A DNA stretch of 34,253 bases, from positions 1-34,253 of the forward strand of contig JAKPQQ010000131.1 in the NCBI GenBank assembly GCA_029557215.1, in the 5' to 3' direction. Position 1 is the stretch's first letter. The number at the start of each line of letters is the position of its first letter. Of this stretch, positions 1-32,108 are shown in pieces. A model generated the notes under the pieces. The model saw only the letters and a program-made list of their open reading frames with translations, ran no database searches and was not told the origin of the DNA. The position numbers and the translations under genes were made by a program. Origin of the DNA: Fibrobacterota bacterium. Lineage in GTDB: Bacteria > Fibrobacterota > Fibrobacteria > UBA5070.

Positions 1-334
1 GCAGGAACAACTTGAGCAGAGCCTCCAGCGACAGCCCCGTGTACAACGGCGTTTCCAGCGAAGCGAACAGGATTTGCGCCCCCGACACTCCGCTCCTCAG
101 GAGCGCGTCGATGCACTGGAACATCATCCAGGTCTTGCCCACGCGCCGGGGCCCCAGCACCAAGACGCTGCGGTTCACCTCGCTTTGGCTCACCAGGCGA
201 TGGAAGTCCGTGAAATAGGCGCGCTTGGGAGCGTCGCGATATTCGGCATCCACCCCCCGCCCTGCCTGCCACCACGGGTTGTCGAACCGCAGCCGCTCGA
301 TCACCTCGCGCTCGGAGATCTCCATCAAAGCCAT
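1..334 (-). CDS. AAA-type ATPase, N-terminal part (cut by window edge)
   Basis: The first 111 residues are present and the rest lies beyond position 1. A Walker A motif, GPRRVGKT, is visible at residues 61-68, preceded by a hydrophobic strand (SVLVL) and followed by a helix. This matches ATPases of the AAA_14/DUF4143 type, which are common in accessory regions and whose cellular role is mostly unknown. The N-terminus (MALMEISERE) with the FDNPWW stretch is typical of that group. The ATG at 334 is chosen because a strong purine-rich ribosome site (GGAAGGGAGGGGG) lies just upstream; an ATG at 325 is the alternative. The Walker B motif and the C-terminal nuclease-like domain cannot be seen here. 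The upstream leader is strikingly AT-rich and carries repeated boxes that could be operators. Confidence 0.8.
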   Translation of the reverse strand, partial: MALMEISEREVIERLRFDNPWWQAGRGVDAEYRDAPKRAYFTDFHRLVSQSEVNRSVLVLGPRRVGKTWMMFQCIDALLRSGVSGAQILFASLETPLYTGLSLEALLKLFL

Positions 335-370
335 GTGATCCCCCTCCCTTCCGCTCTTCTGATATCAAGA

Positions 371-459
371 TAAACACACTTAAACACACCTAGATCAACA
401 AAAATAAGCAAACAATTTTAGCCTTAAATATATCAAACTAAGCACACTTAAGTCTGCTT
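371..459. promoter_or_regulatory. AT-rich leader with repeated boxes and a palindrome
   Basis: The 13-base box TAA(G/A)CACACTTAA occurs at 371-383 and 439-451. A further partial copy (TAAACACACC) is at 381-390. The second box is half of a near-perfect 20-base palindrome at 440-459, arms AAGCA and TGCTT around ACTTAAGT. The stretch is far more AT-rich than its surroundings. It lies 37-125 bases upstream of the ATPase start. By position it is a promoter and operator region for that gene, perhaps for autoregulation; no regulator is identified. Confidence 0.5.
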
Positions 460-524
460 GTAAAAAGAACTGCATCACAACACCCCCGCCAGGAAGCATC
501 GCGGCGTGGTGGATGTCATCTGGA

Positions 525-773
525 TCAGATCCTCGGCGCAAAAATGAGGGGCATGGCAGCGACCCTGTAGCCGTCGCGCCAATGCCGTCGCGCGGCGGAC
601 AGCACGACGTCCAGATGCTCCTCTTCGCTTCCCGCGCAAGCATCCTTCAGGCTCTCGAACAGATGGCAATGCGCGTCGAACCGCGCGGGAAAATCTGGTG
701 CGATCGAGAAGTCCTCCGGACGAAATCGGGGGATTGGGAAGCCGCGCCCGCCCGCGGCGCGCGTTTGCATCAT
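525..773 (-). CDS. Small hypothetical protein (82 aa)
   Basis: This is an 82-residue reading frame that begins 7 bases after the stop codon of the upstream barrel-like gene and reads in the same direction. The start is the first of two adjacent ATG codons; only a weak ribosome site (TAGGC) precedes it. The protein has a mixed, globular-looking composition, with an HCHLFESL stretch, an acidic SEEEH patch and a tryptophan in RRHWRDG. No signal peptide, membrane segment or known motif is recognised. The same frame runs on upstream beneath the neighbouring gene, so the real start is uncertain. It is kept because it fills the operon end tightly and its residue use looks protein-like, but it could be chance. 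Confidence 0.45.
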   Translation of the reverse strand: MMQTRAAGGRGFPIPRFRPEDFSIAPDFPARFDAHCHLFESLKDACAGSEEEHLDVVLSAARRHWRDGYRVAAMPLIFAPRI

Positions 774-780
774 TTTTTGC

Positions 781-1374
781 CTACATCCAATCCCACTGGA
801 CCTTCGCGACCGCCTGCCCGAGCGTCCATTCGCTGGTCGACGAAGCCACCCTGTTCCTGGAGCGGAACGAAACCTCGCAGATCGTGCCTTCCAGGACGAC
901 CCGCGTGCCGCCACGCGCGAAGGCCAGACCGGAACCTGCCCGCCAACCAGGTCCGCTCTCGGCGCTGGCCGCCTCGTCGTGGACCAGGGCGGGAACCGCC
1001 ACGCCCGCCCCCGCACGAATCCACAGCTGCGAAGGCCCGATCCTCAGCAGACGAAAACCGCCCACCAGCGACGCGTGGGCGACGGAAAACCCCGTGGCGT
1101 CGAGCCGATGGACCGACAGCACCTCGCCATCGATCCCCAGGACCAGAGCCCCCTCCCAGCGATCCTGGCGAAGCGCGGCCTCCAGGTCCACCACGGCCGT
1201 GAACAAAGCCGGGATATCGCGGGAAAAGTCGGTTCCCGGGACGGAACCGCGCACACGCTGTTCCAAGAATGGCTTGGACAGGCCTCCGCCGAACCGAATG
1301 GAAAGCGAATCGCTCCATCCCGCCCGGAGCACCGCGGGAAGCAACAGCAAAAGCAGGAACGCTGGACGTGTCAT
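781..1374 (-). CDS. Exported outer-membrane-barrel-like protein
   Basis: The protein has 197 residues with a classic signal peptide: MTRPAF, then a leucine-rich core (LLLLLLPAVLRA), with cleavage likely near residue 20. The mature part alternates polar and hydrophobic residues in about eight strand-like stretches, is rich in glycine, and ends in aromatic residues (QWDWM). That pattern fits a small outer-membrane beta-barrel or a porin-like fold. No enzyme motif is seen. Its ATG overlaps the stop codon of the SGNH esterase lipoprotein upstream (ATGA), so the two are probably translationally coupled and may act together at the cell surface. The barrel assignment rests on sequence pattern only. 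Confidence 0.65.
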   Translation of the reverse strand: MTRPAFLLLLLLPAVLRAGWSDSLSIRFGGGLSKPFLEQRVRGSVPGTDFSRDIPALFTAVVDLEAALRQDRWEGALVLGIDGEVLSVHRLDATGFSVAHASLVGGFRLLRIGPSQLWIRAGAGVAVPALVHDEAASAESGPGWRAGSGLAFARGGTRVVLEGTICEVSFRSRNRVASSTSEWTLGQAVAKVQWDWM

Positions 1375-2063
1375 GGACGCAACTCCGGTTCGAACCGCGC
1401 GATCCACTCCGCGGCCAAGGCGGCGATGCGCAAGGCTCCGGCGCCCGTGAGGTGGACGTGGTCGTGGAAGAACAATTCCATGGAATCCGGACCCGCGGCC
1501 GCCCAGGCCAGATGGCTCAGGCTGTCCAGAGGCACGACCGGGAGATCCAGCCGCGCGCCGGCCTGACGGATTCCGGCAGCCAGGGTGCCGGCCCCCGCGA
1601 TCCCGTCCCGCGATTCCATGGGGGTGACCAGGATCGTTCGCGTCCGCCTCGCGCGGAACGCCGAGACCATCGAATCGACGGCGCGCGCCTCGCGAAGGCT
1701 GTCGTTGCCGTTGTGCCCGAACTGGACGATCGCGATGTCGGCGTTGGCGGCCAGAGCGCCGGGCAGCCCTTCGCGCAGGAAGGATTCCGCTGTGGCACCG
1801 GGAATGGCGAGATCGAACAACGCCGCGTCCGGATCCAGGAATCCGTGGAGGACCTCGCCCCACCCGACGATCCCGCCTTCGGCGGCGTAGTGCGACATGG
1901 TGCTGTCGCCGCAGAGGACCACGCGAAGCCCCCCGCCAGGATCTGTCGCGCATCCCGCAAGGGCGAGGACGACGCAGGCGGCCCGCGCGAGCCATCCCGA
2001 TGGCGGCGGGTTTCCCGACCGTCCCGTCGTCAATCCAGTCCCTTCCAAGCCGGCGCTTCGCAT
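1371..2063 (-). CDS. SGNH/GDSL-type esterase lipoprotein (CE12-like)
   Basis: This is a 230-residue secreted esterase with a lipobox (LALAGC, cysteine 38), so it is probably anchored in the outer membrane. SGNH-family blocks are present in order: block I GDSTM with the nucleophile serine 54, the FGHNGND stretch carrying the block III asparagine, and block V HDHVH with aspartate 201 and histidine 204. GDST with DxVH resembles rhamnogalacturonan acetylesterases (CE12), which remove acetyl groups from pectin; the substrate here is an inference. The ATG at 2063 gives a long leader and overlaps the DinB-like gene by 34 bases. A TTG at 2033, overlapping that gene's stop codon, would give a more usual 27-residue signal peptide. 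Confidence 0.78.
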   Translation of the reverse strand: MRSAGLEGTGLTTGRSGNPPPSGWLARAACVVLALAGCATDPGGGLRVVLCGDSTMSHYAAEGGIVGWGEVLHGFLDPDAALFDLAIPGATAESFLREGLPGALAANADIAIVQFGHNGNDSLREARAVDSMVSAFRARRTRTILVTPMESRDGIAGAGTLAAGIRQAGARLDLPVVPLDSLSHLAWAAAGPDSMELFFHDHVHLTGAGALRIAALAAEWIARFEPELRP

Positions 2064-2476
2064 CCTCGCTGCTTGAGCCATGCGTGCAGGTATCCCACAT
2101 GGTGCATGGCGTGCCGATCCTGCGCCATCACGAGTTCCAGGCGGCTCCAGGCGCAGCCGTCGGGATGGCCCTCCCAGTCGGGCCGGGAGTCCAGGTGCCG
2201 ACGGATTCCGTCGGCGACTTCGGCGAAATAGGCCGACATCTCGCCGGGATCCAGCCGTTTGCGTCGCGCGCGAAGAGCGTCGACCGCCTTGGCCCGTTCC
2301 GAGCCGGGATCGACGAACCACTTGTCCAGCGAGGTCGCCAGATGGAACAACTGCTCGTCGAACCCCCATTCGGAGGAGTCGGAGGGATCGGGCCGGTGGA
2401 TGTCGACCAGAACCTGCACGTTGGCCAGCAGCACGTCGGTCTGGCGGACGACCGCGTCGTGGATCGGAGTTTTCAT
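2030..2476 (-). CDS. DinB-like metal-binding four-helix protein
   Basis: The protein has 148 residues, is predicted cytoplasmic and is mostly helical. The C-terminal HAMHHVGYLHAW stretch matches the conserved histidine motif of the DinB/YfiT superfamily, where three histidines bind a divalent metal. The N-terminal MKTPIHDAVVRQTDVL helix supplies another histidine. Members act in stress responses or as thiol-dependent transferases, and most, like this one, have no assigned substrate. The ATG at 2476 is preceded by GGAGGT at good spacing, which decides the start over a longer upstream frame. It is followed at once by the SGNH lipoprotein gene. Confidence 0.75.
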   Translation of the reverse strand: MKTPIHDAVVRQTDVLLANVQVLVDIHRPDPSDSSEWGFDEQLFHLATSLDKWFVDPGSERAKAVDALRARRKRLDPGEMSAYFAEVADGIRRHLDSRPDWEGHPDGCAWSRLELVMAQDRHAMHHVGYLHAWLKQRGCEAPAWKGLD

Positions 2477-2540
2477 GGCAGGACCTCCATTGCACCGAAG
2501 GCGCGGCTGCACGGACTCGTTCGCCGGTCGGCAGTGGAGG

Positions 2541-3011
2541 TCACCGGGAATCCCGGTCGACCTCCATCGGCACGAGCACCTTCCGGAAGAAGTGCTTCCG
2601 GATCCCGTGTCCGGGAACGTCGTGCGCGAACATCTCCTCGTAGCCGTGGCACCTGTAGAACCCTGGCGCCTGGAACGACGCCGTTTCCAAAGTTACGAGC
2701 GAACAGCCTCTGGCGCTGGCAACATTTTCCGTCTCGCGCAGCAATCTGCTCCCGTATCCTTCGCCCCGGCTGGATTCCCGGATCCACAAGACGTCCAGAT
2801 GCAACCAGCCCCACCGGGTCCAACCCGTGGAGCCTCCCGCCACCTCTCCGGCGGCATCGCGCAGCACCACGGCGAACCACCGGAAATCCCGGGTCCCCGT
2901 GACGCGGCAGTTGTGCTCGAACAGGGACTCGGAAAGGCTTTCGAGCAATTCCCGTCCGGGTTCTTCGACGACTTCCACGTCCAGCCCGCCGCTCGACCGC
3001 TCCCGGATCAC
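2541..3011 (-). CDS. GNAT-family N-acetyltransferase
   Basis: This is a 156-residue single-domain protein with the GNAT fold order. A WLHLDVLWI strand leads into the acetyl-CoA loop SSRGEGYGSRLL (R-G-x-G-x-G/A motif A), followed by the ARGCSLVTLET strand and the AxGFYRCHGYEE motif near the C-terminus. Such enzymes move an acetyl group from acetyl-CoA to an amine; the acceptor is unknown. The late FYRCHGYEE stretch resembles GNATs whose substrates are small molecules or protein N-termini. The start is a GTG at 3011, only 10 bases after the stop codon of the upstream lipoprotein frame. The start choice is moderately certain; the family is clear. Confidence 0.85.
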   Translation of the reverse strand: MIRERSSGGLDVEVVEEPGRELLESLSESLFEHNCRVTGTRDFRWFAVVLRDAAGEVAGGSTGWTRWGWLHLDVLWIRESSRGEGYGSRLLRETENVASARGCSLVTLETASFQAPGFYRCHGYEEMFAHDVPGHGIRKHFFRKVLVPMEVDRDSR

Positions 3012-3021
3012 GACGAGCGCC

Positions 3022-3489
3022 TCACACCAGGTTCGGATTCGGGAACGACTTCCGGAACCGCACCGTGTCGGTGAACGGCACAGGTGTCAGCGAACGCCCC
3101 GAGTCCCGATACTGGAGCAGATGCCAACCGCGCCCGAAGCGGCCCGTCAATTTCCGTTTGCGCAACAACCCATCGTCATCGGCCACGATCGAATCGCGCA
3201 CCCAGAACAACACGTGGGCGGAAAAATACGCCTCGCCATCCGAAGGTTCGGCTCCCGCTGCCATTTGCCCGATGGTCATTTTGGCGATTTCGTCGGTCGC
3301 GGCCACCAAAAGCGGAGCCAGCGCCCAGCGATGCTCGGTCTCGTAGTGGGCCACGGTGTCGTCGTCGATCTTCCCCCCGGCATCGTTGGCGTCGATCTGC
3401 CTGATCCTTGCGTAGAACTCGAAGGAAGAATCGACCCGCGCAGGAAGAGCCAACCACCCGGATTCCCCTGGCAACGCGAAAGCCTGCAT
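3022..3489 (-). CDS. Hypothetical protein (155 aa), C-terminal part of split lipoprotein
   Basis: The frame opens with ATG at 3489, 36 bases after the TAG that ends the lipoprotein fragment and in the same frame. The protein is soluble-looking: an SSFEFYARIRQID strand, the AHYETEHRWALAPLLVAATDEIAKMTIGQMA helix pair (given here as seen, with HYETEHRW as the most distinctive part), FSAHVLFWVRDSIV, and a GWHLLQYRDSG strand. No enzyme motif or family is recognised. No good ribosome site precedes the ATG, so independent translation is doubtful. The GNAT gene begins 10 bases after its stop codon. Confidence 0.55.
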   Translation of the reverse strand: MQAFALPGESGWLALPARVDSSFEFYARIRQIDANDAGGKIDDDTVAHYETEHRWALAPLLVAATDEIAKMTIGQMAAGAEPSDGEAYFSAHVLFWVRDSIVADDDGLLRKRKLTGRFGRGWHLLQYRDSGRSLTPVPFTDTVRFRKSFPNPNLV

Positions 3490-3525
3490 GACAGGCCGAT
3501 CGGCCAGTGACTTCGGAAGGATCGG

Positions 3526-3756
3526 CTAGGAAAACGACGCGTGGTACCACTTTGCGAGCATGACGCGACCCGCGATCCCCTCTTCGACCCGGAACCGCAG
3601 CGTGTCGAGGGGAGCTTCCGCCGCAGTGGGGTCCTGGACGGAATCCGACTTCCCGGCAGGATCGGCGGTCGTCGCTCCGGTGCCGACAGGAGACTCCGGG
3701 TCGCAAGCCAAGAGTCCGATCGCCACGATCGAAAGAACGAAAAGGGATGTCTTCAC
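3526..3756 (-). CDS. N-terminal lipoprotein fragment (76 aa)
   Basis: The fragment starts at GTG 3756, preceded by an excellent GGAGG site. It has a lipoprotein signal peptide with a hydrophobic core (LFVLSIVAIGLLA) and acylated cysteine 18, a low-complexity linker rich in T, A, D and P, and then the beginning of a folded domain (LDTLRFRVEEGIAG). It ends at TAG in the middle of what looks like that domain (WYHASFS). As a stand-alone product it would be a short surface-anchored peptide. More likely it is the first part of the split gene that continues downstream in the same frame. Confidence 0.55.
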   Translation of the reverse strand: MKTSLFVLSIVAIGLLACDPESPVGTGATTADPAGKSDSVQDPTAAEAPLDTLRFRVEEGIAGRVMLAKWYHASFS

Positions 3757-3885
3757 GAAACGCCTCCATCACCCGGGGAACCACTGGAGAATCGAACGAT
3801 CCTCGAACCAGACCGGCCCATTCCACGCTTTTTGTCAATGTAGGCGTTCCCCCGAAGCTTCTGGCAGGGATGGAAGTCGCCGACG

Positions 3886-5517
3886 CTACCGGACCACTTG
3901 CACCAGGACCGTGGTCCGCGAACGGCTTCCCGTCGACTCCAGCACGTGCACACCGGAAGGCACCCCTTCGAGCGGGACTTCCCCGACCCCTCCGCGCATC
4001 GCACCGCGCGCCAGAATCCGACCGTATGGGTCGCGAAGCGCGAGCGACGCGATCTCGTGCCGTTCGCCGAACACCCGAATCGTTCGACCGATCGTCCCGA
4101 TCCTCAATGCCGGTCGGGACGATCCGGTCCCGCGCACGCCGGTCCCCGCCGGGAGCTTCAGGTACACGATGGATTCCACCCGCTCGGCGTCTGGCAGGAT
4201 GTGCGGGATCCCGTCGGAATTCCTGTCCTGCGCGCCGTAGTCGTTGTCGTTCAACAGCGCGACCGCCGTGTCGCCCAGCAGCTCCAGCCCTTCGGGCTTG
4301 CGGCTGGTCCAGGCCCCGCCACCCGACAACAGATCCCCCATCCGCACGGTTCTCGCCACCGGCACGATCCCCACCGCGCTCCACACCGAGGTCGCAGTGT
4401 CCATCCCGATCTCTTCGGGCGTGAGGAGCTTGGAAACGTCGGACTTCCAGAAGGTCAGCCCCTTGCCGTGGTCTTCCGGATCGCGGATGTCGGTGGCGCC
4501 TGCGATGTCGAACTCCACCAGATCGACCCAGTATTTTCCCAGTCCGTCCTCGCCGTGTTCGATCGCCAGGAATCGGGTCTCGGAAAGCGCCACCATGTCG
4601 CCGATCTTGGTCTCCGAAGCCAGGCGCTTGGAAGCCCCCTTGAGATCGACCAAGTAGACGTGTTCGCGGCTTTTCCCGGTGGCAGGATCCAACCACAGGA
4701 CGCGGACCATCCTGGAATCCTTCGTGTTGGCGCTCGACGAATTGTCGGCCGGCGACTGCAGCATCGCCACGACCTTGCCCGAAGGCGTGACCGCCATCGC
4801 CTCGAACCCGCGGTTGTCGCGACGTTTGGCGAACACCTTGGGAAGCCCGTTGCCCGGATGCCACTCCTTCACGATCCGCTTGGTGGCCTTGTCGATCTCG
4901 ACAATGGACGGCCCCAGTTCGTCGGAGGCCAGGAAGTTCCCCGAAGGAAGAATCCTCAAGGCCTCGAAGTCGTATCCGTTGGGCACCGCGGCGAGCTTCG
5001 CGGCTTCGTCCACCGACGCCACGGCCAGGTTTCCCTTCAAGGCGATCTCGTCGGGATCCAGTCTGCTGTTGGGCAACCCCGTGGTGAACACCGTGGCCGA
5101 CTCCAGCGAAGCGATCGAATCGATCTCCAGCACCTTCAGGGTCCCGCCGTCCACCTTCAATTTCACGAGCTTGTGGTGGTAGTCAGGCAGCGCGAACACC
5201 CGGGCCTTCATGGAGCTCGTCTCGTAGGCGCTCGACAATCCGCGATCATCCAGCGTCCAGAACGTGGATCCAGTGGGATCGTCCGGATCGCGCGCCAGGC
5301 AACCGAACCCGGACAGCCGCACGGGTGTGGCCAGTCGCGCGTAGTTCTTGGGCGAGCCCGTCTTCTCGGTCGCGAAGAAAAACGGCGTTTCCAGACCGCC
5401 CGATTGGGCCAGGACGGGCATTTCGGGCAACGCGTAGGCCTTGTCGAATTCCCAGGCCCCGGTCGACGAAGCCATCGCCGCCGCGACCATCCACCCCTTC
5501 GACATCCATTCCGACAT
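3886..5517 (-). CDS. Secreted phytase-like (esterase-like) protein with C-terminal sorting-like tail
   Basis: The protein has about 543 residues. The N-terminus has a short hydrophobic export signal. The body matches the phytase-like beta-propeller family (PF13449): FWTLDDRGLSS near the start, GYDFEALRILP with ASDELGPSIVEID in the middle, and NRGFEAMAVTPSGK, all typical blade motifs. Members are extracellular and often described as having esterase-like activity; phosphate-ester substrates are likely but not proven. The last 70 or so residues (ALRDPYGRIL, VPSGVHVLE) resemble a type-A secretion tail. The ATG at 5517 is chosen because GGGAG lies 6 bases before it; an ATG at 5523 sits too close to that site. 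A pair of 11-base direct repeats lies 72-115 bases upstream. Confidence 0.75.
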   Translation of the reverse strand: MSEWMSKGWMVAAAMASSTGAWEFDKAYALPEMPVLAQSGGLETPFFFATEKTGSPKNYARLATPVRLSGFGCLARDPDDPTGSTFWTLDDRGLSSAYETSSMKARVFALPDYHHKLVKLKVDGGTLKVLEIDSIASLESATVFTTGLPNSRLDPDEIALKGNLAVASVDEAAKLAAVPNGYDFEALRILPSGNFLASDELGPSIVEIDKATKRIVKEWHPGNGLPKVFAKRRDNRGFEAMAVTPSGKVVAMLQSPADNSSSANTKDSRMVRVLWLDPATGKSREHVYLVDLKGASKRLASETKIGDMVALSETRFLAIEHGEDGLGKYWVDLVEFDIAGATDIRDPEDHGKGLTFWKSDVSKLLTPEEIGMDTATSVWSAVGIVPVARTVRMGDLLSGGGAWTSRKPEGLELLGDTAVALLNDNDYGAQDRNSDGIPHILPDAERVESIVYLKLPAGTGVRGTGSSRPALRIGTIGRTIRVFGERHEIASLALRDPYGRILARGAMRGGVGEVPLEGVPSGVHVLESTGSRSRTTVLVQVVR

Positions 5518-5588
5518 GCGCATCTCCCGGTATCCAAGAATCGATCTCCGCTAACCTACCCCGACAGTCCGGCCCTTCGCGGCCCGTT

Positions 5589-5632
5589 TGTCACCACCCA
5601 GCCACATTCCTCGTGACGCCATGTCACCACCC
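5589..5632. repeat. Pair of 11-base direct repeats (TGTCACCACCC)
   Basis: TGTCACCACCC occurs at 5589-5599 and 5622-5632, spaced 33 bases start to start, which is about three helical turns. It lies between the end of the MFS gene and the start of the phytase-like gene, both on the minus strand. It may be a regulator site for the phytase-like gene. The rest of 5524-5702 shows no gene. Confidence 0.4.
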
Positions 5633-5702
5633 CGACATCGCGGGCCGATCCGGTGCAGCGAAGCCGCCAAAACGGGTTTCCCAAGGATGGCTCGTGGTCG
5701 GA

Positions 5703-6995
5703 TCAGATCGTCCCCGGGTCGGAGGCTCTCGCCAGCCGGTCGCGCATGTCGGCGCGCAAGGCGGGCACCCGCGAAGCGAACACCGCCGCGCAGGCGAGGA
5801 ACGCGCCCCCGAACAGGAACACGGCCTCCGGGAATCCCCGGCGATCCGACACCCAGCCGATCGCCAGACTCCCGAAGGTCGATGTTCCCAGGAAGGCCAA
5901 CGTGTAGAGCGACATGACCCGCCCCCGATACCGATTGTCGACCAACGTCTGGATCAGGGCGTTGGCGCCGCTTGCCGCCGACACGAACCCGAACCCTCCG
6001 ACGGCGATCAGAAGCATGCAGGCCGCCTGGTGGCGCGCCAGCGAAAGCCCCACCACGGCCACGCCCGCCAAGCCCCCCATGACCGCGATCCGCGAAAGCA
6101 GACCCTTCACGCTCCTGCGCGAGGCCAGATACAACGCCGCGGTCAGGGCGCCGACCCCGCCCGAGCCCATCAGGAACCCCAAGGTCCTCGCGTCGCCTTG
6201 CAACATGTCGCGAGCCATCACGGGCAGCAGGACGGTGTAGGCCAGGCCGAACATGCCCACGGCCGACACCAGCAGAAGAAGGTCGCGGATGGGTTCGTGC
6301 GAACGCACGTACCGGATTCCGTCCATGATTTCCCTGCCCAACCGATGGTGCGCGGATGGCTGCGTCGGGTTCGGACGGATGGCCACCAGGGCGAGCACCA
6401 CGGCGACGTAGCTCGCGGCGTTCAGGTAGAAGCACCGGTCTTCGCCGATGGTGGCGACCAGCACCCCTCCGATGGAAGGTCCGACCAGCCGGGCCGCGTT
6501 GAACAGCGCCGAATTGAGCGCGATGGCGTTGGGAAGCATCGCCTTGTCGTCGATCATCTGCGACACGAACGCCTGCCGGAACGGGATCTCGAAGGCGTTC
6601 AAGACGCCGAGCACCGTGGCCAGGAACAGCAGCGACCAGACCGGAGCGTTCCCGCTTCCCACCACGATCGCCAGAGCCAACGCTTGGATTCCGGCCAATG
6701 CCTGGATCGCGATCAATGCCCGTTTGCGGTCCCAGCGATCGGCCAGGGCACCCGCCAACGGAGCGAACACCAGGGACGGAATCTGACTGAAGAACGCCAA
6801 GGCGCCCAGCAGGGTCTTGGAATCGGTGACGCGGTACAGGAACCAGCCCAGGGCGACCTGTTGAAGGAACGTGCCCACCAGCGAGATTCCCTGCCCCACG
6901 AAGAACAGCCGGAAGTTCCTGGAACCCAGGGCCCTGAAGACCCCGCGCCCCGCCGCACCGCCTCGATCGGAAGCCTTGTCCCCGGACGAAGTCAT
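5703..6995 (-). CDS. MFS transporter, EntS/MFS_3 type
   Basis: This is a 430-residue inner-membrane protein with about 12 hydrophobic segments. The loop after TM2 carries GALADRWDRKRAL (residues 82-94), the MFS motif A form seen in EntS-like siderophore exporters and related drug efflux pumps. RNFRLFFVGQGISLVGTF near the N-terminus is also typical of this group, as is FRQAFVSQMIDD after TM5. It probably exports a small molecule by proton antiport; the substrate is unknown. Its ATG overlaps the stop codon of the DUF2721 gene upstream (ATGA), so the two are translationally coupled. No siderophore synthesis genes lie nearby, so export of an iron chelator is not supported by context. Confidence 0.88.
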   Translation of the reverse strand: MTSSGDKASDRGGAAGRGVFRALGSRNFRLFFVGQGISLVGTFLQQVALGWFLYRVTDSKTLLGALAFFSQIPSLVFAPLAGALADRWDRKRALIAIQALAGIQALALAIVVGSGNAPVWSLLFLATVLGVLNAFEIPFRQAFVSQMIDDKAMLPNAIALNSALFNAARLVGPSIGGVLVATIGEDRCFYLNAASYVAVVLALVAIRPNPTQPSAHHRLGREIMDGIRYVRSHEPIRDLLLLVSAVGMFGLAYTVLLPVMARDMLQGDARTLGFLMGSGGVGALTAALYLASRRSVKGLLSRIAVMGGLAGVAVVGLSLARHQAACMLLIAVGGFGFVSAASGANALIQTLVDNRYRGRVMSLYTLAFLGTSTFGSLAIGWVSDRRGFPEAVFLFGGAFLACAAVFASRVPALRADMRDRLARASDPGTI

Positions 6996-7393
6996 TTCTT
7001 GTCGTTGGACTCGATGTCGCGCAGGTGCAGGCTCAGGGCGCCGCCCGAAAGCTGGATTTCCACCAGCGACAACCCCAGGGAGGCGGTCATGAGGGCCAGA
7101 CTGGCACCGAACACCCACTTGGCCGCCACGACGAGCCCCATCAGCAGCAGGATCATGCACACGACGCAAAGCAGCAGAGCCAGGATCCCCATGGTCTGCA
7201 TGTCGCGGATCAATCGCAATCGCCGCCGCAGGTTCTGGATCTGGTCCAGGAAGATGGGATCGGGCGAAGCCTTCCAATCCGCATGGAGCTTGCGGATGAT
7301 CGCCGCCAACCCCAGGAACCGGTTGGTGTAGGCGAGCATCAGGAGCGACACCGTCGGGAACAGCAGCGCCGGCGTCGAAATCGTGAGTTCCAT
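6992..7393 (-). CDS. DUF2721 family membrane protein
   Basis: The protein has 133 residues. The N-terminal hydrophobic segment (TPALLFPTVSLLMLAYTNRFL) leads to a charged amphipathic region (LRRRLRLIRDMQ), then two strong membrane segments (LALLLCVVCMILLLMGLVV and VFGASLALMTASLGL), then the polar end LHLRDIESNDKK. The layout and the NRxxxLAxxxR pattern match DUF2721, small integral membrane proteins of unknown function. The start ATG at 7393 has GGAG nine bases upstream. The gene ends in an ATGA overlap with the MFS transporter, suggesting a shared transcript and possibly a shared complex, though that is inference from spacing. Confidence 0.8.
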   Translation of the reverse strand: MELTISTPALLFPTVSLLMLAYTNRFLGLAAIIRKLHADWKASPDPIFLDQIQNLRRRLRLIRDMQTMGILALLLCVVCMILLLMGLVVAAKWVFGASLALMTASLGLSLVEIQLSGGALSLHLRDIESNDKK

Positions 7394-7503
7394 GTCGCGG
7401 TCTCCGTTGGTTCCGTCCCTTGCGGAACTTCCCCGCAAGCGTGGTTCGAAATGTGCCGGCCAAAGATACCCGCGGCATCGGCGGGTGACGAAGGATCGTC
7501 GTT

Positions 7504-8637
7504 TCAGGGAAGGAAGAGCCGCGCTCCGCCGGACCTTCCGGAAATCGTCACCGTGGCCAACCCGTGCACGCCCAGGGGGACCTCCACGCGTCCTCCCGAC
7601 ACCGGCACGGTCGCCAATTCCCGCCCGGCCATGTCCTGGAACACGGCGGTTTCGCCGTCCGGCACGGAGAGCATCTCCAGCGAGCGCCCACGGGTGGATC
7701 GCAATCCCCAGCCCTGCCCCCGACCCGCGAGGGAAGCCGAAGACGAGGCGATGAACGCGTCGGAGACCGCGAAATCGTCGAAGAAGATCCGTTCGTCCTT
7801 GGTGGGCCGGAAGTCGTTGGTGCTCCCACCAAAAAACGTCGAGAAGTAGAACTGGTCGATGTGCATGGTGTCCAGGTCCCGGAACCGGAACCCGACCGTA
7901 TCGATCGCGAGTTCTCCGTCGTACCAGCCCGTCACGCGCCCGTCGTACTTGCCTTGTCCGCCATCGGTTCCCGGCGTGTTCAGGCAGATCCTCACCTGGA
8001 CCTCGTGCCATTTTCCGGGTTCCACCACCAACGGCGCGCCGTTCTTCTTCCAGACCAGATCGGTCCCGTAGGTGCCTGCCTGACCTGCGGAATACACGTA
8101 CTGGACCAACGAAGCTCCCGATCTCCACATCAACCGCGCCGACCAACCATCCCGGCCCGTTGGCGGGTTCCCACCGGTGTTGCATTGCGAACCGCAAAGC
8201 CCCGGCAGCTTGCCGCCCTTGGTCCACCCGAACCCCACCGGGAAGTACAACCTGTACCGGGCGTACAAGGTGTCGGCCTCGCCACCGAACATCGATTTCC
8301 ACTGGGCTCCGCCCGCGGGATTGCCGCCGGTACCCCCTGGCCCCAGCGAGTTCAACGGGTAGAGCACCCGGATCGCCTTGCCGCCCCCTGCGGTATCGCC
8401 TCCCGCGACCACCGACACGCGGCTCTCGCCAGTGAGCCCGTTGTCCCAGGTCACGCCGGGGAACGCCAGTTGGCACATCGCCCGCGAATAGGGGCCTGTC
8501 GGATCGTTCTCGAAATCCGCGCGAAGAACCTCGCCCGAAAATGCGACGGCCACCGCGACCAGACACCCCTTCGCCAGAACATCGAACCGATGGCGAAGGT
8601 TCGAACGGAACGTCGTGTTGCCAAAAAACAAGGTCAT
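7504..8637 (-). CDS. Secreted polysaccharide lyase, PL14-like, with C-terminal tail
   Basis: The protein has 377 residues from the ATG at 8637. After a rather long n-region comes an export signal (LVAVAVAFSGEVLRA). The central domain has the PL14 pattern: FGGEADTLYARYRLYFP, then WTKGGKLPGLCG, the WSARLMWR strand, GKWHEVQVRICLN and DQFYFSTFFGGST. PL14 enzymes cleave alginate or glucuronan by beta-elimination; the substrate here is unproven. The final 65 residues (AVFQDMAGRELATV, GLATVTIS) look like the sorting-type tail found on other exported proteins in this window. An ATG at 8655 is an alternative start; neither has a strong ribosome site. The gene is divergent from the RDD gene. Confidence 0.75.
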   Translation of the reverse strand: MTLFFGNTTFRSNLRHRFDVLAKGCLVAVAVAFSGEVLRADFENDPTGPYSRAMCQLAFPGVTWDNGLTGESRVSVVAGGDTAGGGKAIRVLYPLNSLGPGGTGGNPAGGAQWKSMFGGEADTLYARYRLYFPVGFGWTKGGKLPGLCGSQCNTGGNPPTGRDGWSARLMWRSGASLVQYVYSAGQAGTYGTDLVWKKNGAPLVVEPGKWHEVQVRICLNTPGTDGGQGKYDGRVTGWYDGELAIDTVGFRFRDLDTMHIDQFYFSTFFGGSTNDFRPTKDERIFFDDFAVSDAFIASSSASLAGRGQGWGLRSTRGRSLEMLSVPDGETAVFQDMAGRELATVPVSGGRVEVPLGVHGLATVTISGRSGGARLFLP

Positions 8638-23238: not shown

Positions 23239-23787
23239 TCAATCCCACCCAGGAATATCCATGGGGCCTTTCCAGGGATGGTGGATCAGGCCGGTCCGAA
23301 TGGAATCCAGAGTCTTTGAGTATCCGTCATCACTGATGCAAGGACCAAACGCGGGGAAGGATGCTTTCCCAGGATTCAGGATGTGCCTGCAGCTTGATTT
23401 GGCTACCGCCCTGGCCTGGATTTTCACCGAATCGCCTGGGTAGAACGTGAACCGGAGATGGTATTTCTGGTTCGCCGTATCCAGCGGCGGCAAGATGTGG
23501 AACGGGAAGGGGCGAGAATAGTCAATTCCACTGGAATCTGACCATTGAACGATGAGCGGAGGATCCAAGATCGTCCTTGATGCAATTTCGATCGAAGACG
23601 TTCCGAAATGGCCAACCAACTTGACAATTTCTCGCTCCCCATATTTCCCTGGTCTCATGAGAGAAACCCAAATCATGCCTGGTGCGTGATTGATACCTTC
23701 CAGATCGTAGTAGACCATTTTTTGATGAGTTCGATTTGCGCACCCAACGACCAATAGGAGCATCACAAACTGGGTAAACTTGGACAT
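23239..23787 (-). CDS. Small lipoprotein, candidate immunity protein for the Tle1-like effector
   Basis: The protein has 182 residues and starts at ATG 23787, sharing one base with the effector stop codon (TGATG). The N-terminus MSKFTQFVMLLLVVGC is a lipoprotein signal with cysteine 16 as the acylation site. The mature part is beta-rich with no recognised family; it has MIWVSLMRPGKYGE, HLRFTFYPGD and several scattered cysteines. The coupling to a Tle1-like phospholipase gene is the classic layout of Tle effectors, whose immunity proteins (Tli) are often periplasmic lipoproteins. Immunity is inferred from this context, not from sequence similarity. The region is noticeably AT-richer than most of the window. 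Confidence 0.7.
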   Translation of the reverse strand: MSKFTQFVMLLLVVGCANRTHQKMVYYDLEGINHAPGMIWVSLMRPGKYGEREIVKLVGHFGTSSIEIASRTILDPPLIVQWSDSSGIDYSRPFPFHILPPLDTANQKYHLRFTFYPGDSVKIQARAVAKSSCRHILNPGKASFPAFGPCISDDGYSKTLDSIRTGLIHHPWKGPMDIPGWD

Positions 23788-26621
23788 CAAGATTTTCGTC
23801 CTCCGAAATAGACGTCTCGTTTGCGCCGTGGTAGATCCAAGAACCAGCGAGAGTCGTGGAAATATTCTGCCACCAGCCGTTGGAAATCTGTCGAGCCGAC
23901 TTGCACCGACGATTCGAGTACATCCATGCTCCCTGCATGGGTGGTAAATCGATGTATGATGTGATCCGGTGCAAGGGGTGCAAACAGATTTCGAACTTCA
24001 GGCGAAGCTTTCTCTGATGTTTTCCACCTCACTCCCGCCTTCGCGGTGCGGTCACGCATGACCTCCAAGGCCAACCGCGATAGATCATTCCCCAGTTGAC
24101 GGATTCCGGGAATTTTCAGCACAGGCATCGATCGATAGCGCTCCGGGATCGCTCCCGGTTGCCCTGTCGCCAGCGTTTCCCGGCGCACCCGTTCGAATTC
24201 CGCCATTTCCTGAAGGTAGCGTCGCTCGTGCAACTCCTTCACGCGCTGCGCAACCTGGCTCTTCGATTCGGTCGTGGTGCCGGCCAACCCACGCGGAGTG
24301 CCGCCATTGTCCAAGCGTTCGTTCAGGACGCGGTACACGTAGTCGTTCACGCTCTCCCCGGGTTCGGGCTCGGCCACCGGCAAGTCGGGGATCCATTCTT
24401 CCGGACCGTAACCGCCGCCTACATCGGCGTGCATCCCCGGCACGATCCATTCCTCCCAGTCGGGATTCGGCATCGGGGCGCGCCCCCGCACGTCCTCCCA
24501 GTCTTCCGGCCCGACGGCTCGCGGGCCATCCTTGAGCACCCGTTCCAGGGTCCAATCGGTCTTCAGATCCGGCTGGCACCGGATGCTCCAAAGGTCGAAA
24601 CTCGCCCGCACCTCCGACTGCGCCACCAGGTGGACGACTTTCTTGACCCGGCTCGCATGCACCGACAGATCGAACCCGATGTCGATCCCGTTGCCGGGTA
24701 CCCCCACCGATCCGACCGTATCGAAGATGCCCAGTGTTTCGATCGTGATCGAGGTCTTGGACAGCTCGTATTTCTTGAGGTCGTCGTCGTCGAACAGTGT
24801 ATTCACCAGGGCCCGCGCGATGGCGGCACCTCGGCTGAACCCGAAAATGTGAAGCTTCAGTTCAGCGTCGGGGTGGGTCTTCGTCATCACGCGAAGCCAG
24901 TCCATCGATTTGCGGATTCGCTTTCCAAACCCGATGGCAAGCCCCTGTTTGAGTCCATCGAACTCGCCATCGGTTCCGATGCCTTCCACATAGTGAGCAT
25001 CCCACAGCTCATTCCCTTCGGTGGTCTGCGGATAGAGCTGGAACAGCTTCCCGATGTTGGTCACCGACCCGGTCTTCAGGTCGTGTTCCAGATTGTTCCC
25101 GGTACCGTCGTTGAAGATGCCCAGGTGCAACGTGGTGATGGTGGGCTTGGTCACCTGCTTGGCCGGTTGCGGAATCTTTTCCAGGTCGGCGAGCTGCGCG
25201 TAGAACGCACAGCCAAAGGTGTCCTTGTCGGCGTCCCAGGTGCGTTCGCGGTCGGTCGGATTCTGTCGTGTCGCGGCGTCTTCGTGGCATTGGGCTTGGC
25301 AGTCTTGTGCGCCGTCGCCGCATGCCGGACACGGGAATGTGATGTTCCCCGCTCCCTTGCAGGTGGAGGGGAACAGGAACACGTTCGCGCGTTGGTTGGG
25401 CGAGACCTTTTCCCGCAACGCCGTCTTGTCCTTGGATGCCTGAAGATTGTCGGCGTCGGGCTTGGACGGAACCAATGCGGGATTGGTCGCGCCGCAGCCG
25501 CAGCAGGCCCATTGCCTTTTGGCGTCGGGTGGGTCTCCCACGAAGTTTTCGGGCTTGAGCTTCACCGAACAGATCGCGTCCATGTAGGCCAAGTACAGTT
25601 TGGTCTTGGTCATTGGGCCTGCGATGCCATCCACCTTCAAGCCGTTGTCGGCTTGGTAGGACCGGATCGCCTGGTCGGTCTTGGGGCCCAGGATTCCGTC
25701 CACGGCACCGGAGTAGTACGGCGCTCCCGATCGATGCTTCAAGGTGGCCAGAGCGGCTTGGGTGGTATCCAGATCCCATGGATCGAACTTCGTACCTTGG
25801 GAGAGTTTGAGCCATCCATCTAGATCGCGCGTGAGCAATCCGTGCACCGCCCGTGCGCGTCGGTCGGAAAGCGCCTTGTTGTCGGCGGGTTCGGGCATCT
25901 GGTCGGCATGCCCGAAGATGGCCGCGACGGCGTCCGGGTTTTGCTCATGGAGCGCCTTGAGCTTGTCCAGTTCCTGGCACGACGACGGAAGCGGGAACGA
26001 CGACCCGAACGCGAAGTGGGTCGGGCCCAGCGACCAGACCGCCAACGGCTTGGGCGGCTGGTGGGCTGCGACCTGCACCTTGGGGCTATCCAGCTTTTCC
26101 TTAGCGTTGGGGTGCTGAGCCAGCACATGGTATTCCAACGGCGTGCCCGGCTTCACGAGGGTCTTGGGCGAGAGCAACTTGCCCGTGGCGGTGGCCTTGC
26201 CGTCTTTCACGAGGCCGTCAAAATTTGCCGACTGGTCTTCCACGGTCGTGGTGCCGTCAGGCTTGGGGATCGTGCAGAACAGCCTGAACGAGACGGATCC
26301 TGTCGTCGCTTCGGCGGGTCCCTGGAGGATCACTTCCATCGCGAAGGGCTGGTCGGTGGCGAGCTGGGCTGGATCAGTCGTGATGCGGCAATTGGACAGG
26401 GTGACCTTCGCGGTTGCCGATTGGCCCGCGGGTTCCGGGTTGTCTTCGCGGCATTCCTTGAGATAATTGGGATTGACGCTTCCTTCGCCAGAAGTGTTTC
26501 CATTGCCTGAACGACTCGACTTCTTCTCGAAAATCGATTTGTCCAAGCTGCCGGGGTGGGCGGTGGACTTGTCGAGGAACGAAACTCCAAAAGGATTGTT
26601 GGCGCGCGGACTCGATGACAT
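23787..26621 (-). CDS. Tle1-like (DUF2235) phospholipase effector with OmpA-like and peptidoglycan-binding regions
   Basis: The protein has 944 residues and no signal peptide. In order: an unknown N-terminal part (1-195); an OmpA-like region (about 203-263, IFGHADQMPEPADNKALSD, RRARAVHGLL); a PG_binding_1 domain (about 290-345, YYSGAVDGILGPKTDQAIRS split here, DGIAGPMT); a cysteine-rich region (373-471, CCGCG, CPAC, CQAQC) that may bind zinc; then a DUF2235/Tle1-type hydrolase (498-800). The hydrolase has GIFNDGTGNN, nucleophile S596 in GFSRGAA, D634 in GIFDTVGS and H731 in GMHADVGGGY, a complete triad. Such enzymes are type VI secretion phospholipases that damage rival membranes. GAGGAAT precedes the ATG at 26621. 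No secretion-system genes are in this window, so the delivery route is unknown. Confidence 0.85.
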   Translation of the reverse strand: MSSSPRANNPFGVSFLDKSTAHPGSLDKSIFEKKSSRSGNGNTSGEGSVNPNYLKECREDNPEPAGQSATAKVTLSNCRITTDPAQLATDQPFAMEVILQGPAEATTGSVSFRLFCTIPKPDGTTTVEDQSANFDGLVKDGKATATGKLLSPKTLVKPGTPLEYHVLAQHPNAKEKLDSPKVQVAAHQPPKPLAVWSLGPTHFAFGSSFPLPSSCQELDKLKALHEQNPDAVAAIFGHADQMPEPADNKALSDRRARAVHGLLTRDLDGWLKLSQGTKFDPWDLDTTQAALATLKHRSGAPYYSGAVDGILGPKTDQAIRSYQADNGLKVDGIAGPMTKTKLYLAYMDAICSVKLKPENFVGDPPDAKRQWACCGCGATNPALVPSKPDADNLQASKDKTALREKVSPNQRANVFLFPSTCKGAGNITFPCPACGDGAQDCQAQCHEDAATRQNPTDRERTWDADKDTFGCAFYAQLADLEKIPQPAKQVTKPTITTLHLGIFNDGTGNNLEHDLKTGSVTNIGKLFQLYPQTTEGNELWDAHYVEGIGTDGEFDGLKQGLAIGFGKRIRKSMDWLRVMTKTHPDAELKLHIFGFSRGAAIARALVNTLFDDDDLKKYELSKTSITIETLGIFDTVGSVGVPGNGIDIGFDLSVHASRVKKVVHLVAQSEVRASFDLWSIRCQPDLKTDWTLERVLKDGPRAVGPEDWEDVRGRAPMPNPDWEEWIVPGMHADVGGGYGPEEWIPDLPVAEPEPGESVNDYVYRVLNERLDNGGTPRGLAGTTTESKSQVAQRVKELHERRYLQEMAEFERVRRETLATGQPGAIPERYRSMPVLKIPGIRQLGNDLSRLALEVMRDRTAKAGVRWKTSEKASPEVRNLFAPLAPDHIIHRFTTHAGSMDVLESSVQVGSTDFQRLVAEYFHDSRWFLDLPRRKRDVYFGGRKS

Positions 26622-26829
26622 CAGGATTCCTCGAATGGGGGCATCGCGGAAACGGTAAATACGGGAATGAAGAACCAAAGATACTTCACCCGCCAACCGT
26701 GAGCAGGACCACCACTGGCGTCACCTCACCAGAACGCACCACAGGTGCAGAGCCATCACCCTACGATCATCGGCCTGGACAATTGAGGGACAGCGAAGAG
26801 CTGCGCCCCCTGATCCGTCCCGGCCCCGC

Positions 26830-28063: not shown

Positions 28064-31000
28064 TCAGAAGTTGACTTGCCTTGGTGCTTCTGCCGTCGTG
28101 TAATTGGGCTCTTCCCCAAAAACCTTCGCGCCGGCACCCCATAACGTTCCGTCTTTTTTCAGATACATAAATCCGTCAAGCCCTGGAAACATATCCGCCA
28201 CATCTGTAGCTACAATCGTTGGTTTGTTATAAATCGGCCCAGTTTGAAAACTAACCGGCAGCTGCCCACTCATAAGAAGAGTCCCATCTTTCTGTAGGAA
28301 GAGACTGTAATTGTTACGTGCCTTTACGGAAACAACATTTACGAGATTTTGGATCTGCACGAAGAAATTACCAACCCCTGTTGAGATCGATCCTTGTCCA
28401 AGTTGTCCAAAGTCATTTGTCCCAGCACCACGCACGGTTCCGTCAGGATTCAGCAAATGGATATGCCCATTTCCAACTGCAAAAGATCTCACACCCGTCT
28501 CAAGCAAAGCAATGCTGTCGTAATCCTGCCCGAATATGGAACCCCAAGCCCAAAGCCTACCGGACGAATCTAAAGCCAACCCAGCATTTGATTGAGACGC
28601 ATCAACCATTGCAACATGTTCCAGGCCTTGAATTCGTGCTGGCAATGTATCTTCGTGCCACCCTCCAAGAATCGAGCTTCCGCCAGTCAAGACTGTCCCA
28701 TCATTCTTTCGAAAGAGGGTTGTGCTTCCTGAAACGACCAATGATGAGACCCCAGAAATAGCAATGGTTTGGAATGGAAGGGGCGCTCCTGGGAAGGCCG
28801 TATTGATTACCGTCCCACCAAGCTGTCCAGGGCTGAGGTAACCTGCACCTATCAGCTCCCCGGTGTTTTTCATGATATATGTCGATTGACCGCTTGCCGT
28901 TGTTGCTGAAATCCATTTTACATTGTTCGCAATTTCCCTTGGAGTCAAATTTGCATAATCACTCCCCCCAGAAACAAAACCGAACCCTGCACCTGCATTG
29001 GAGCCAGAGGCAAGCACTCTACCATCCGACATCAAATACAATGCATAAGCCATTCCACTCATTTCATTTCCACCAATTGACATTGAAATAACTTTTGAAA
29101 TTTTCAAGTTGACAGAGCTGACAAGCCCTCCTGGCTGAGATCTCGCGAACACAGTTATCAGTCCAGTCTGTTGAACAGATAACGGGCCATTCAGAGGGGT
29201 CCAGGCATTTCCATCGAGTGAATACTCGATCGCGTCAGCCCCCTCTGAGCGAATCGTATCGTACACGGTCCCGATGTAGTTGCCCGCCGGAGCCGAGTGG
29301 GTCGGGGCCAAGGCCGTCCGAGCGACGACCGCGGTATCCTTGGCGGTGTTACCTGCGCTGTCCGTTGCGGTCAGGATGTAGCTGCGTGTACCGACAGGCA
29401 GACTCGCGACGATGTGCGTGAAGGCTCCGTTCGATGCCGGGACGACCGTTCCATTCACGGTCACCGACCTCAGCTTCAGGTTGTCGGAGACCTTCCAGAC
29501 CAAGGTATCGGCGGTCACGGCGTTGGCCACCAGGCGGTACTTCTGCTTCTGGAACGCCACCACCGGGGCGCTCTTGTCGTATTTGCGAACCACCCGAACG
29601 GAATCCGTGGCGATGTTGCCGGCCTCGTCGGTGGCGATCAATCGAACCATCGTGGTGTCCGTGGTCAGCGATACCGTCGCGGAAAACACCCCGGATTGGC
29701 CCGATACCAATGCTCCATTGATGGATACCGACTTCAAAGCATCGTCGGTCACTTCCCACGACACGACCATGCTCGGGACGAAGGCCCATACCGCCGAATC
29801 CTTGGAACCTCCCTTGTAGGCAATCTTCGGTCCGGTGGCGTCGGCCAACCTGGAGACCTTGAGGGTGTCGAGCCTCGTGTTCCCACGAGCATCCTTGGCT
29901 TCCAGCACGAACGCATTCGGCCCCACGGTCAGTGGCTGCGTGGTGGAGTACAACCCGTCCGTCCCGACGATCAGCTTCGTGCCGTTCACCGAAACCTGGC
30001 TTAGGGTCGAATCATCGGTCACCTTCCAGGACAATTTGAGCGAAGACGTGGTCGACGCGACCGTGGTGTCCACCCGAGGGGCCGCCTTTTCGATCTTGGG
30101 CGCGATGCTGTCGAAGGCGGCGGCACGAACGATCACAAGTTCCTTGCCGGAACGGTTCCCGTAGGAGTCGACCGCTTCGATCACAAAGATGTTCCTGCCA
30201 GGAGCCAGCGGCACGATCGTCGCGTAGGGCGACGCGGATGATTCGGAACGCACGCCACCCACCCGGACGGTGTCGATCCCTGCCGGATCGTCGGCGGAAA
30301 CGAGCACCCGCAGGCTGGACATGGCGAACGCCACCTGGGTGTCCGTCGCTGGCGACAAGATCTCGATGGCAGGCTTGGTGCTGTCCCGGTCGCGGGTCAC
30401 AAAGACGGTGTCCCTGGCGGGGTTCCCGCGTCTGTCCGTTGCCTGCAGGACCAGCGTATCGATTCCGACCTCGAGGTCGACCGAGGTCTGGAAGATTCCC
30501 GACGCTCCCGTCAGGATCCGACCATTCAGCGAAACCAGATCCAACGAGTCGTCGGTCACCTTGTAGTTCAGGGCGAGCACCTTGGTGGAATACCCCACGA
30601 CGACCTCGCGTGCGACAGGAGCCACCCGCTCGATGCGCGGAGGAACGGTGTCACCGGGATCGTTCGCCCTCGTGACCTTCAGCCGAAGCGGCGATGGCAG
30701 GTGGTTGCCAGCCTTGTCCCAAGCATCCACCAGAACGACGTTTTCGCCAACCGCGAGCGATACCGAGACGCTGCACGGCGAGCCCGTGCAGGATTGGCTA
30801 CCGACCTGGATGGAAGAAATCCCGGCAGGGTCGGTCGCGGCGGCGACCACCTCGATCTCGCGGGTTCCGTTGGGAACCGATGTGTCTTGGGACGGCTCCA
30901 CGAACCGCACGACCGGAGTCGTGGTGTCTCGGGCAAGAACCACGAACGTCGCGGCGGCGGTCACGGAACGGCCGGAATCGTCCTGCAGGGTCACGAAAAG

Positions 31001-31987
31001 TGTATCGGTCCCCGCTGCGGCGGAGGCCTTTGCCTGGATCGAGAAATTCCCATCCAGGATCCAGGACGTATCGGTGTTCCCGGGAAGCTGCTGCACCTGG
31101 AACAGGAAATCGTCCGATCGCCCCAGCGGCCCACGCACCTGGTACTGCGGATTCCCAACCTTCACACCTTTGTTCCAGGCGAAGCTCCCTCGAACGGCAA
31201 TCGTCCCGCCACCGGCTTCGACGGCGCCATCGACGGACAGCGCGTTGACGATGCGGATCGGATCGGGCGGAAACAGGACCAGACTGTCGGAGCCTTGCAG
31301 ATCGCCCGAGCGGATCATAACTTCGGCGCGAAGTCGGAGCTGGGAAAAGTCGACCTGGACCACCGACGCGATCCTGGCGACGCTGATCCCCTCCGAGGCT
31401 CCCAGGACCAGAATCTTCGCCATGACCGCCGACGAATCGACACCGTACGGAAGCGACTTGACGGAAAATGCTCCGGAAAGGATCCGCGAAGCCAAATACC
31501 GCTGCAAGGCCGCGATCTGGATCGCGACCGGATCGGAAGCACTGCCGTAAGCGCCGGATTCGAAACGGACCGAATCGAAACCTTTCAGCAAGGCCACCGC
31601 CTGCTCGTCCACGTTCCGGATTTCCTTGTTGACTTCCAGCTCGCCTTTCGCCGTGACCTTGACCTGCACCACCGTCGTCCGCACCCCCAACGTCCAAAGC
31701 TCCACTTCCATGGAGTCGAAGGCGATCGAACGCGGGAACGTCGCGGTGACTTGGAAGGCCGTGGCGCTCATGCGCTCGATGAGAAACGCTCCGCTCGATT
31801 CCTTGTGGATCCAGGCGACGGAATCCGGGTAGCGCTCCGATTCGACGGACCACTGCTGCTGGACCTGGAAGGCTCCACCCGGATCCGAACGGGTGGACGT
31901 TTCGCTCTGGCAGGAAAAAAGGCCAACCACCACAATCAGGAAAAGGGGGATTCGATGGAAAATACGCCGGGAGAATGCTATGGACAT
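28064..31987 (-). CDS. Large surface lipoprotein: six Ig-like repeats and RCC1-type C-terminus
   Basis: The protein has 1307 residues. The lipoprotein signal is PLFLIVVVGLFSC. An N-terminal region of about 350 residues is followed by six Ig-like repeats of about 80-90 residues, each opening with D(S/T/K)..P.I and ending with a DxxGN turn (WDKAGNHL, TDRRGNPA, VDSYGNRS, KDARGNTR, TDEAGNIA, TDSAGNTA). A chitobiase-like segment (IEYSLDGNAWTPL) links to about 340 residues of RCC1-type repeats (SDGRVLASGSNAG, SSGRLWAWGS, GTNDFGQLGQG, KDGTLWGAGA). It is probably outward-facing and binds a ligand or partner cell. The ATG at 31987 has GAGGT upstream. The RCC1 part is markedly AT-richer than the Ig part, which suggests domain fusion from another source. 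Confidence 0.82.
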   Translation of the reverse strand: MSIAFSRRIFHRIPLFLIVVVGLFSCQSETSTRSDPGGAFQVQQQWSVESERYPDSVAWIHKESSGAFLIERMSATAFQVTATFPRSIAFDSMEVELWTLGVRTTVVQVKVTAKGELEVNKEIRNVDEQAVALLKGFDSVRFESGAYGSASDPVAIQIAALQRYLASRILSGAFSVKSLPYGVDSSAVMAKILVLGASEGISVARIASVVQVDFSQLRLRAEVMIRSGDLQGSDSLVLFPPDPIRIVNALSVDGAVEAGGGTIAVRGSFAWNKGVKVGNPQYQVRGPLGRSDDFLFQVQQLPGNTDTSWILDGNFSIQAKASAAAGTDTLFVTLQDDSGRSVTAAATFVVLARDTTTPVVRFVEPSQDTSVPNGTREIEVVAAATDPAGISSIQVGSQSCTGSPCSVSVSLAVGENVVLVDAWDKAGNHLPSPLRLKVTRANDPGDTVPPRIERVAPVAREVVVGYSTKVLALNYKVTDDSLDLVSLNGRILTGASGIFQTSVDLEVGIDTLVLQATDRRGNPARDTVFVTRDRDSTKPAIEILSPATDTQVAFAMSSLRVLVSADDPAGIDTVRVGGVRSESSASPYATIVPLAPGRNIFVIEAVDSYGNRSGKELVIVRAAAFDSIAPKIEKAAPRVDTTVASTTSSLKLSWKVTDDSTLSQVSVNGTKLIVGTDGLYSTTQPLTVGPNAFVLEAKDARGNTRLDTLKVSRLADATGPKIAYKGGSKDSAVWAFVPSMVVSWEVTDDALKSVSINGALVSGQSGVFSATVSLTTDTTMVRLIATDEAGNIATDSVRVVRKYDKSAPVVAFQKQKYRLVANAVTADTLVWKVSDNLKLRSVTVNGTVVPASNGAFTHIVASLPVGTRSYILTATDSAGNTAKDTAVVARTALAPTHSAPAGNYIGTVYDTIRSEGADAIEYSLDGNAWTPLNGPLSVQQTGLITVFARSQPGGLVSSVNLKISKVISMSIGGNEMSGMAYALYLMSDGRVLASGSNAGAGFGFVSGGSDYANLTPREIANNVKWISATTASGQSTYIMKNTGELIGAGYLSPGQLGGTVINTAFPGAPLPFQTIAISGVSSLVVSGSTTLFRKNDGTVLTGGSSILGGWHEDTLPARIQGLEHVAMVDASQSNAGLALDSSGRLWAWGSIFGQDYDSIALLETGVRSFAVGNGHIHLLNPDGTVRGAGTNDFGQLGQGSISTGVGNFFVQIQNLVNVVSVKARNNYSLFLQKDGTLLMSGQLPVSFQTGPIYNKPTIVATDVADMFPGLDGFMYLKKDGTLWGAGAKVFGEEPNYTTAEAPRQVNF

Positions 31988-32108
31988 CTTGGACCTCGGG
32001 TAGCGGCAGGAACGTGGTTTTGGCAAAACGTAGAGATTCCCACCGACAATCCGCTGTGATCCCCCTCACACGATCACCCCCAAAATGGGGACGCACCTGT
32101 CACCAACA

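Follow-up and report, generated by a model that had tools for sequence, protein, structure and literature searches.

Organisation of the locus

The window analysed here is the whole of a 34,253-nucleotide contig from a Fibrobacterota bacterium (C81), belonging to a 4.04 Mb assembly of 318 contigs with a completeness of 80.6% and a contamination of 3.3%. Positions 3756–3022 of its minus strand form a single reading frame of approximately 244 codons, which contains one internal TAG (3528–3526, with TCC before it and C after it) at codon 77 and closes with a TGA (3024–3022). Along this strand a GTG start is followed by a signal peptide, a tether, approximately 26 further residues, the TAG, 167 open codons and the TGA. 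The first half of the frame (3529–3756, minus strand) comprises 76 codons, while the second half was originally predicted to run from ATG 3489 to the TGA (3022–3489, minus strand). We confirmed the coordinates of that prediction, in which two adjacent in-phase frames are split by the TAG and 12 sense codons. A TTG in the same frame provides an alternative beginning for the second half (3022–3453, minus strand), leaving 24 open codons (3454–3525, minus strand) between the TAG and this TTG.

Both flanking genes lie on the same strand. Upstream is a phytase-like gene (PF13449; 3886–5523, minus strand) that itself ends in TAG, and downstream is a GNAT acetyltransferase gene (2541–3011, minus strand) that starts 10 nt past the TGA, with a Shine-Dalgarno sequence overlapping that stop codon. 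Scans for promoters and terminators returned nothing above shuffled sequences, and an Rfam scan returned two tRNAs only.

Elsewhere in the window, the minus strand encodes a 969-residue protein (23787–26696) that combines an OmpA-like, a peptidoglycan-binding (PF01471) and a Tle1-like phospholipase (PF09994) domain. It is followed by a small protein (23239–23790, minus strand) without a Pfam match, whose N-terminus looks lipoprotein-like by eye; in layout the pair resembles a T6SS lipase effector of the interbacterial kind together with its immunity lipoprotein. A further minus-strand gene (28064–32026) encodes a secreted-looking protein of 1320 residues with glucodextranase B, Ig-like and RCC1-like repeats, and has an unusually low codon score (0.045 per codon).

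A predicted lipoprotein signal in the first half

In the first half, residues 1–18 contain a hydrophobic stretch that leads into a terminal LLAC (judged by eye), which is the lipobox signal peptide of a signal peptidase II lipoprotein. The low-complexity tether that follows is rich in Pro, Ala, Ser and Asp and looks disordered (also by eye), and the approximately 26 residues remaining before the TAG are short for a domain. No match of weight to a described lipoprotein family was found in Pfam, NCBIfam or PHROGs (best E-value 0.13), and there was none among PDB sequences; such a match is needed to name the lipoprotein family, not to establish lipoprotein status. When folded alone, the joined protein gave a model too poor to use (mean pLDDT 37, pTM 0.28).

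Start signals in the two halves

Ribosome-binding sites were scored as duplex energies (kcal/mol) with the anti-Shine-Dalgarno sequence of the conserved 16S tail, using 394 internal in-frame start codons as controls. The GTG at 3756 has GGAGG 6 nt upstream and a duplex energy of −9.3 kcal/mol, which 2.3% of the controls attain, so the strong start predicted for the first half is borne out. In the second half, ATG 3489 lacks a ribosome site (−1.7 kcal/mol) and TTG 3474 scores −2.5 kcal/mol, while TTG 3453 has a moderate match at −6.5 kcal/mol, a value attained by 7.6% of the controls. For comparison, across 192 called genes the best value near the start has a median of −5.9 kcal/mol. The earlier statement that the second half has no ribosome site is therefore correct for ATG 3489, but too strong overall given the match at TTG 3453, which gives the second half a possible start 36 nt beyond the ATG.

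These signals bear on whether the frame is one gene or two. The lipoprotein signal and strong start of the first half, together with an ATG after the TAG that has no ribosome site, argue for an interrupted single gene. The moderate site at TTG 3453, where our home-made gene caller also begins the second half, instead suits two neighbouring genes in phase, namely a 76-residue lipoprotein with a genuine TAG stop and a signal-less orphan of approximately 143 residues that begins at TTG 3453 or nearby. TTG is a weak start codon, which counts against that second gene, as does a first protein that would contain little beyond a tether.

Coding signal on either side of the TAG

We scored coding potential with a codon model seeded on 18 genes of the window and refined over 336 kb; the gene calls behind it are rough, and the first half is itself among the called genes. 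A first model, trained on long open reading frames, scored a plus-strand frame higher, probably through shadow-frame contamination, and was replaced. With the refined model, the first half scored 8.5 over its 76 codons, with the other five frames negative, and the second half scored 29.9 over 155 codons, with the other frames negative or near zero (0.9). Both halves share one frame with one stop between them, and in each it is this frame that the coding signal picks out, which speaks for an interrupted gene.

Immediately after the TAG the score falls (residues 81–110, mean −0.28), returning near residues 102–111 and being restored by residues 111–140. The 24 codons between the TAG and TTG 3453 sum to −3.2, an ambiguous signal. 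Scores near this value are approximately three times denser downstream of other genes' stops (n = 407) than inside low-scoring genes (n = 1750), which counts against an interrupted gene and for a second gene beginning further on. Yet −3.2 is well above the median of −8.5 for open post-stop stretches, and 4 of 31 comparable low-scoring genes show a 30-codon dip that is as deep. The dip leans mildly towards a true gap between two genes, without deciding the matter.

In-phase neighbours are common in this genome

The original prediction took the shared phase of the two frames as a sign of a split gene. We counted how often a called gene is followed by a coding frame in the same phase. Pairs were counted where the coding signal of an in-phase frame began within 120 nt of the stop; a stricter first filter failed to pick up the target and was loosened for the final counts. 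In the first 336 kb, an in-phase follower was present for 27 of 267 called genes with a stop; three of these followers, including the target, come after TAG, and the two besides the target have strong starts. A further 379 kb added 33 of 316 such genes, eight after TAG. Across approximately 0.7 Mb of the genome, the tally is thus 60 in-phase downstream coding frames among 583 called genes with a stop, 11 of them after TAG. Among the ten TAG cases other than the target, a downstream start has a clear ribosome site in seven, and three offer only weak ones; these weak-start cases within 120 nt are at L113 4701–10176 (plus strand), L114 9869–11156 (plus strand) and L116 15569–16574 (on its reverse complement).

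With this base rate, an in-phase neighbour is common here, occurs no more than by chance, and is by itself no evidence of a split gene. The locus also resembles known runs of co-directional operon genes in its same-strand order, its short spacing (including the 10 nt to the next gene) and its possible TTG start with a ribosome site, but differs from them in its very short first lipoprotein and in the lack of a relative of either half. If there are two genes, the second probably shares a transcript with the acetyltransferase gene downstream of it. We consider two in-phase adjacent genes a serious alternative, with a likelihood somewhat short of even.

TAG is an ordinary stop codon

The remaining alternative is that the TAG is read through or recoded, so that one gene yields its lipoprotein in two forms, short and full-length. 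The frame is open beyond the TAG, as in known UAG readthrough and recoding, and the next base is C, which makes a leaky stop context in some systems. However, of 418 called genes that are at least 600 nt long and have a stop, 69 close with TAG, and the leucyl-tRNA synthetase-like gene of the window (named by eye) is among the genes it terminates. The stretch of 10–24 codons past the stop scores above zero in 13% of 31 genes ending in TAG, 10% of 135 ending in TGA and 9% of 11 ending in TAA, so that codons after TAG look as non-coding as those after the other two stops. A C directly after TAG is itself common in the genome (13 of 33). Release factor 1 is present and intact (prfA, 467 bits against a cut-off of 423).

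A suppressor tRNA and the general use of TAG had been proposed as checks. None of the 38 typed tRNAs in this genome, which is 80.6% complete, carries a CTA anticodon, nor does any of the 33 typed in a congener. Since the tRNA set is incomplete, with no Trp, Tyr or Ile gene typed, this absence is not proof, and a suppressor tRNA could lie in the roughly one-fifth of the genome that may be missing. The main text of PMC8629427 traces erroneous stop-codon inferences to misalignment and contamination, and the name 'Fibrobacter' is absent from that main text.

In the assembled sequence, TAG is an ordinary stop codon. Unlike in readthrough and recoding systems, it is a common terminator here, alongside RF1 and without a detected TAG-reading tRNA, and we regard amber readthrough or TAG recoding as very improbable. 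Gene-specific readthrough, which would give a short anchor-and-tether product and a full-length orphan lipoprotein with no genome-wide change of code, is more improbable still.

Homologue searches and synteny

Intact relatives in which the halves are joined would favour a single gene, and a homologue search with the joined protein had been suggested. The search found none. There was no homologue in 61 relatives, and 167 genomes of the phylum, searched at E-values up to 0.05, returned only the gene itself and five weak matches (E-values 0.02–0.04). The best of these, to a LysM transglycosylase-like protein (named by eye), proved on residue-by-residue reading to be a chance match lying mainly in the leader, and another (L055) gave nothing by tblastn at 0.01. 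GTDB contigs, scanned once with the joined protein and once with its second half, likewise yielded no homologue, and nothing related to either half was found in phages, plasmids, viral contigs or PDB sequences; only close relatives are within reach of the pattern-based contig scans. The result cuts both ways, with no homologue to join the halves and none of either half alone to speak for two genes.

In the congener (G001), the stretch is absent beside shared genes. Its contig C44 carries the equivalent of window positions 6995–8553 and no window genes below 6995, while positions 2–328 match elsewhere (contig C308), so that window positions 1–6995 mark a synteny break or an insertion relative to the congener.

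Interpretation of the locus

We place an interrupted single gene slightly ahead of a pair of neighbouring genes; the likelihoods given here are judgements and not computed values. The interrupted gene stays ahead because, if there were two genes, the first product would amount to hardly more than an anchor and a tether. Against it stand the missing joined homologue, the moderate start at TTG 3453, the frequency of in-phase neighbours and the post-TAG codons. On balance, we give an even chance to a single lipoprotein gene of an orphan family cut at codon 77 by an ordinary TAG, arising from a nonsense mutation or an assembly error, and we infer that the two halves were formerly one protein. The original prediction offered nonsense mutation, sequence error or readthrough; the first two are still tenable, the third finds no support, and the option of two genes was underweighted.

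Such an interrupted gene would resemble other nonsense-disrupted open reading frames (candidate pseudogenes or assembly errors) in having one frame, one ordinary internal stop with a good start before it, and a first ATG after the stop that lacks a ribosome site, but would differ in that no intact relative joining both halves was found. A true nonsense mutation would create a null allele; otherwise the TAG would be an error of the metagenome assembly. Translation stopping at the TAG would yield a 76-residue prolipoprotein in which a lipid anchor is followed by a tether and a stub of 26 residues, and the second half would go untranslated or be made only weakly from internal starts.

If ordinary, the locus would be of little significance, being another interrupted gene or orphan-frame pair in a metagenome assembly. 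The useful by-product is the base rate of in-phase neighbours in a G+C-rich genome, where shared phase alone should not be taken to mean a split gene.
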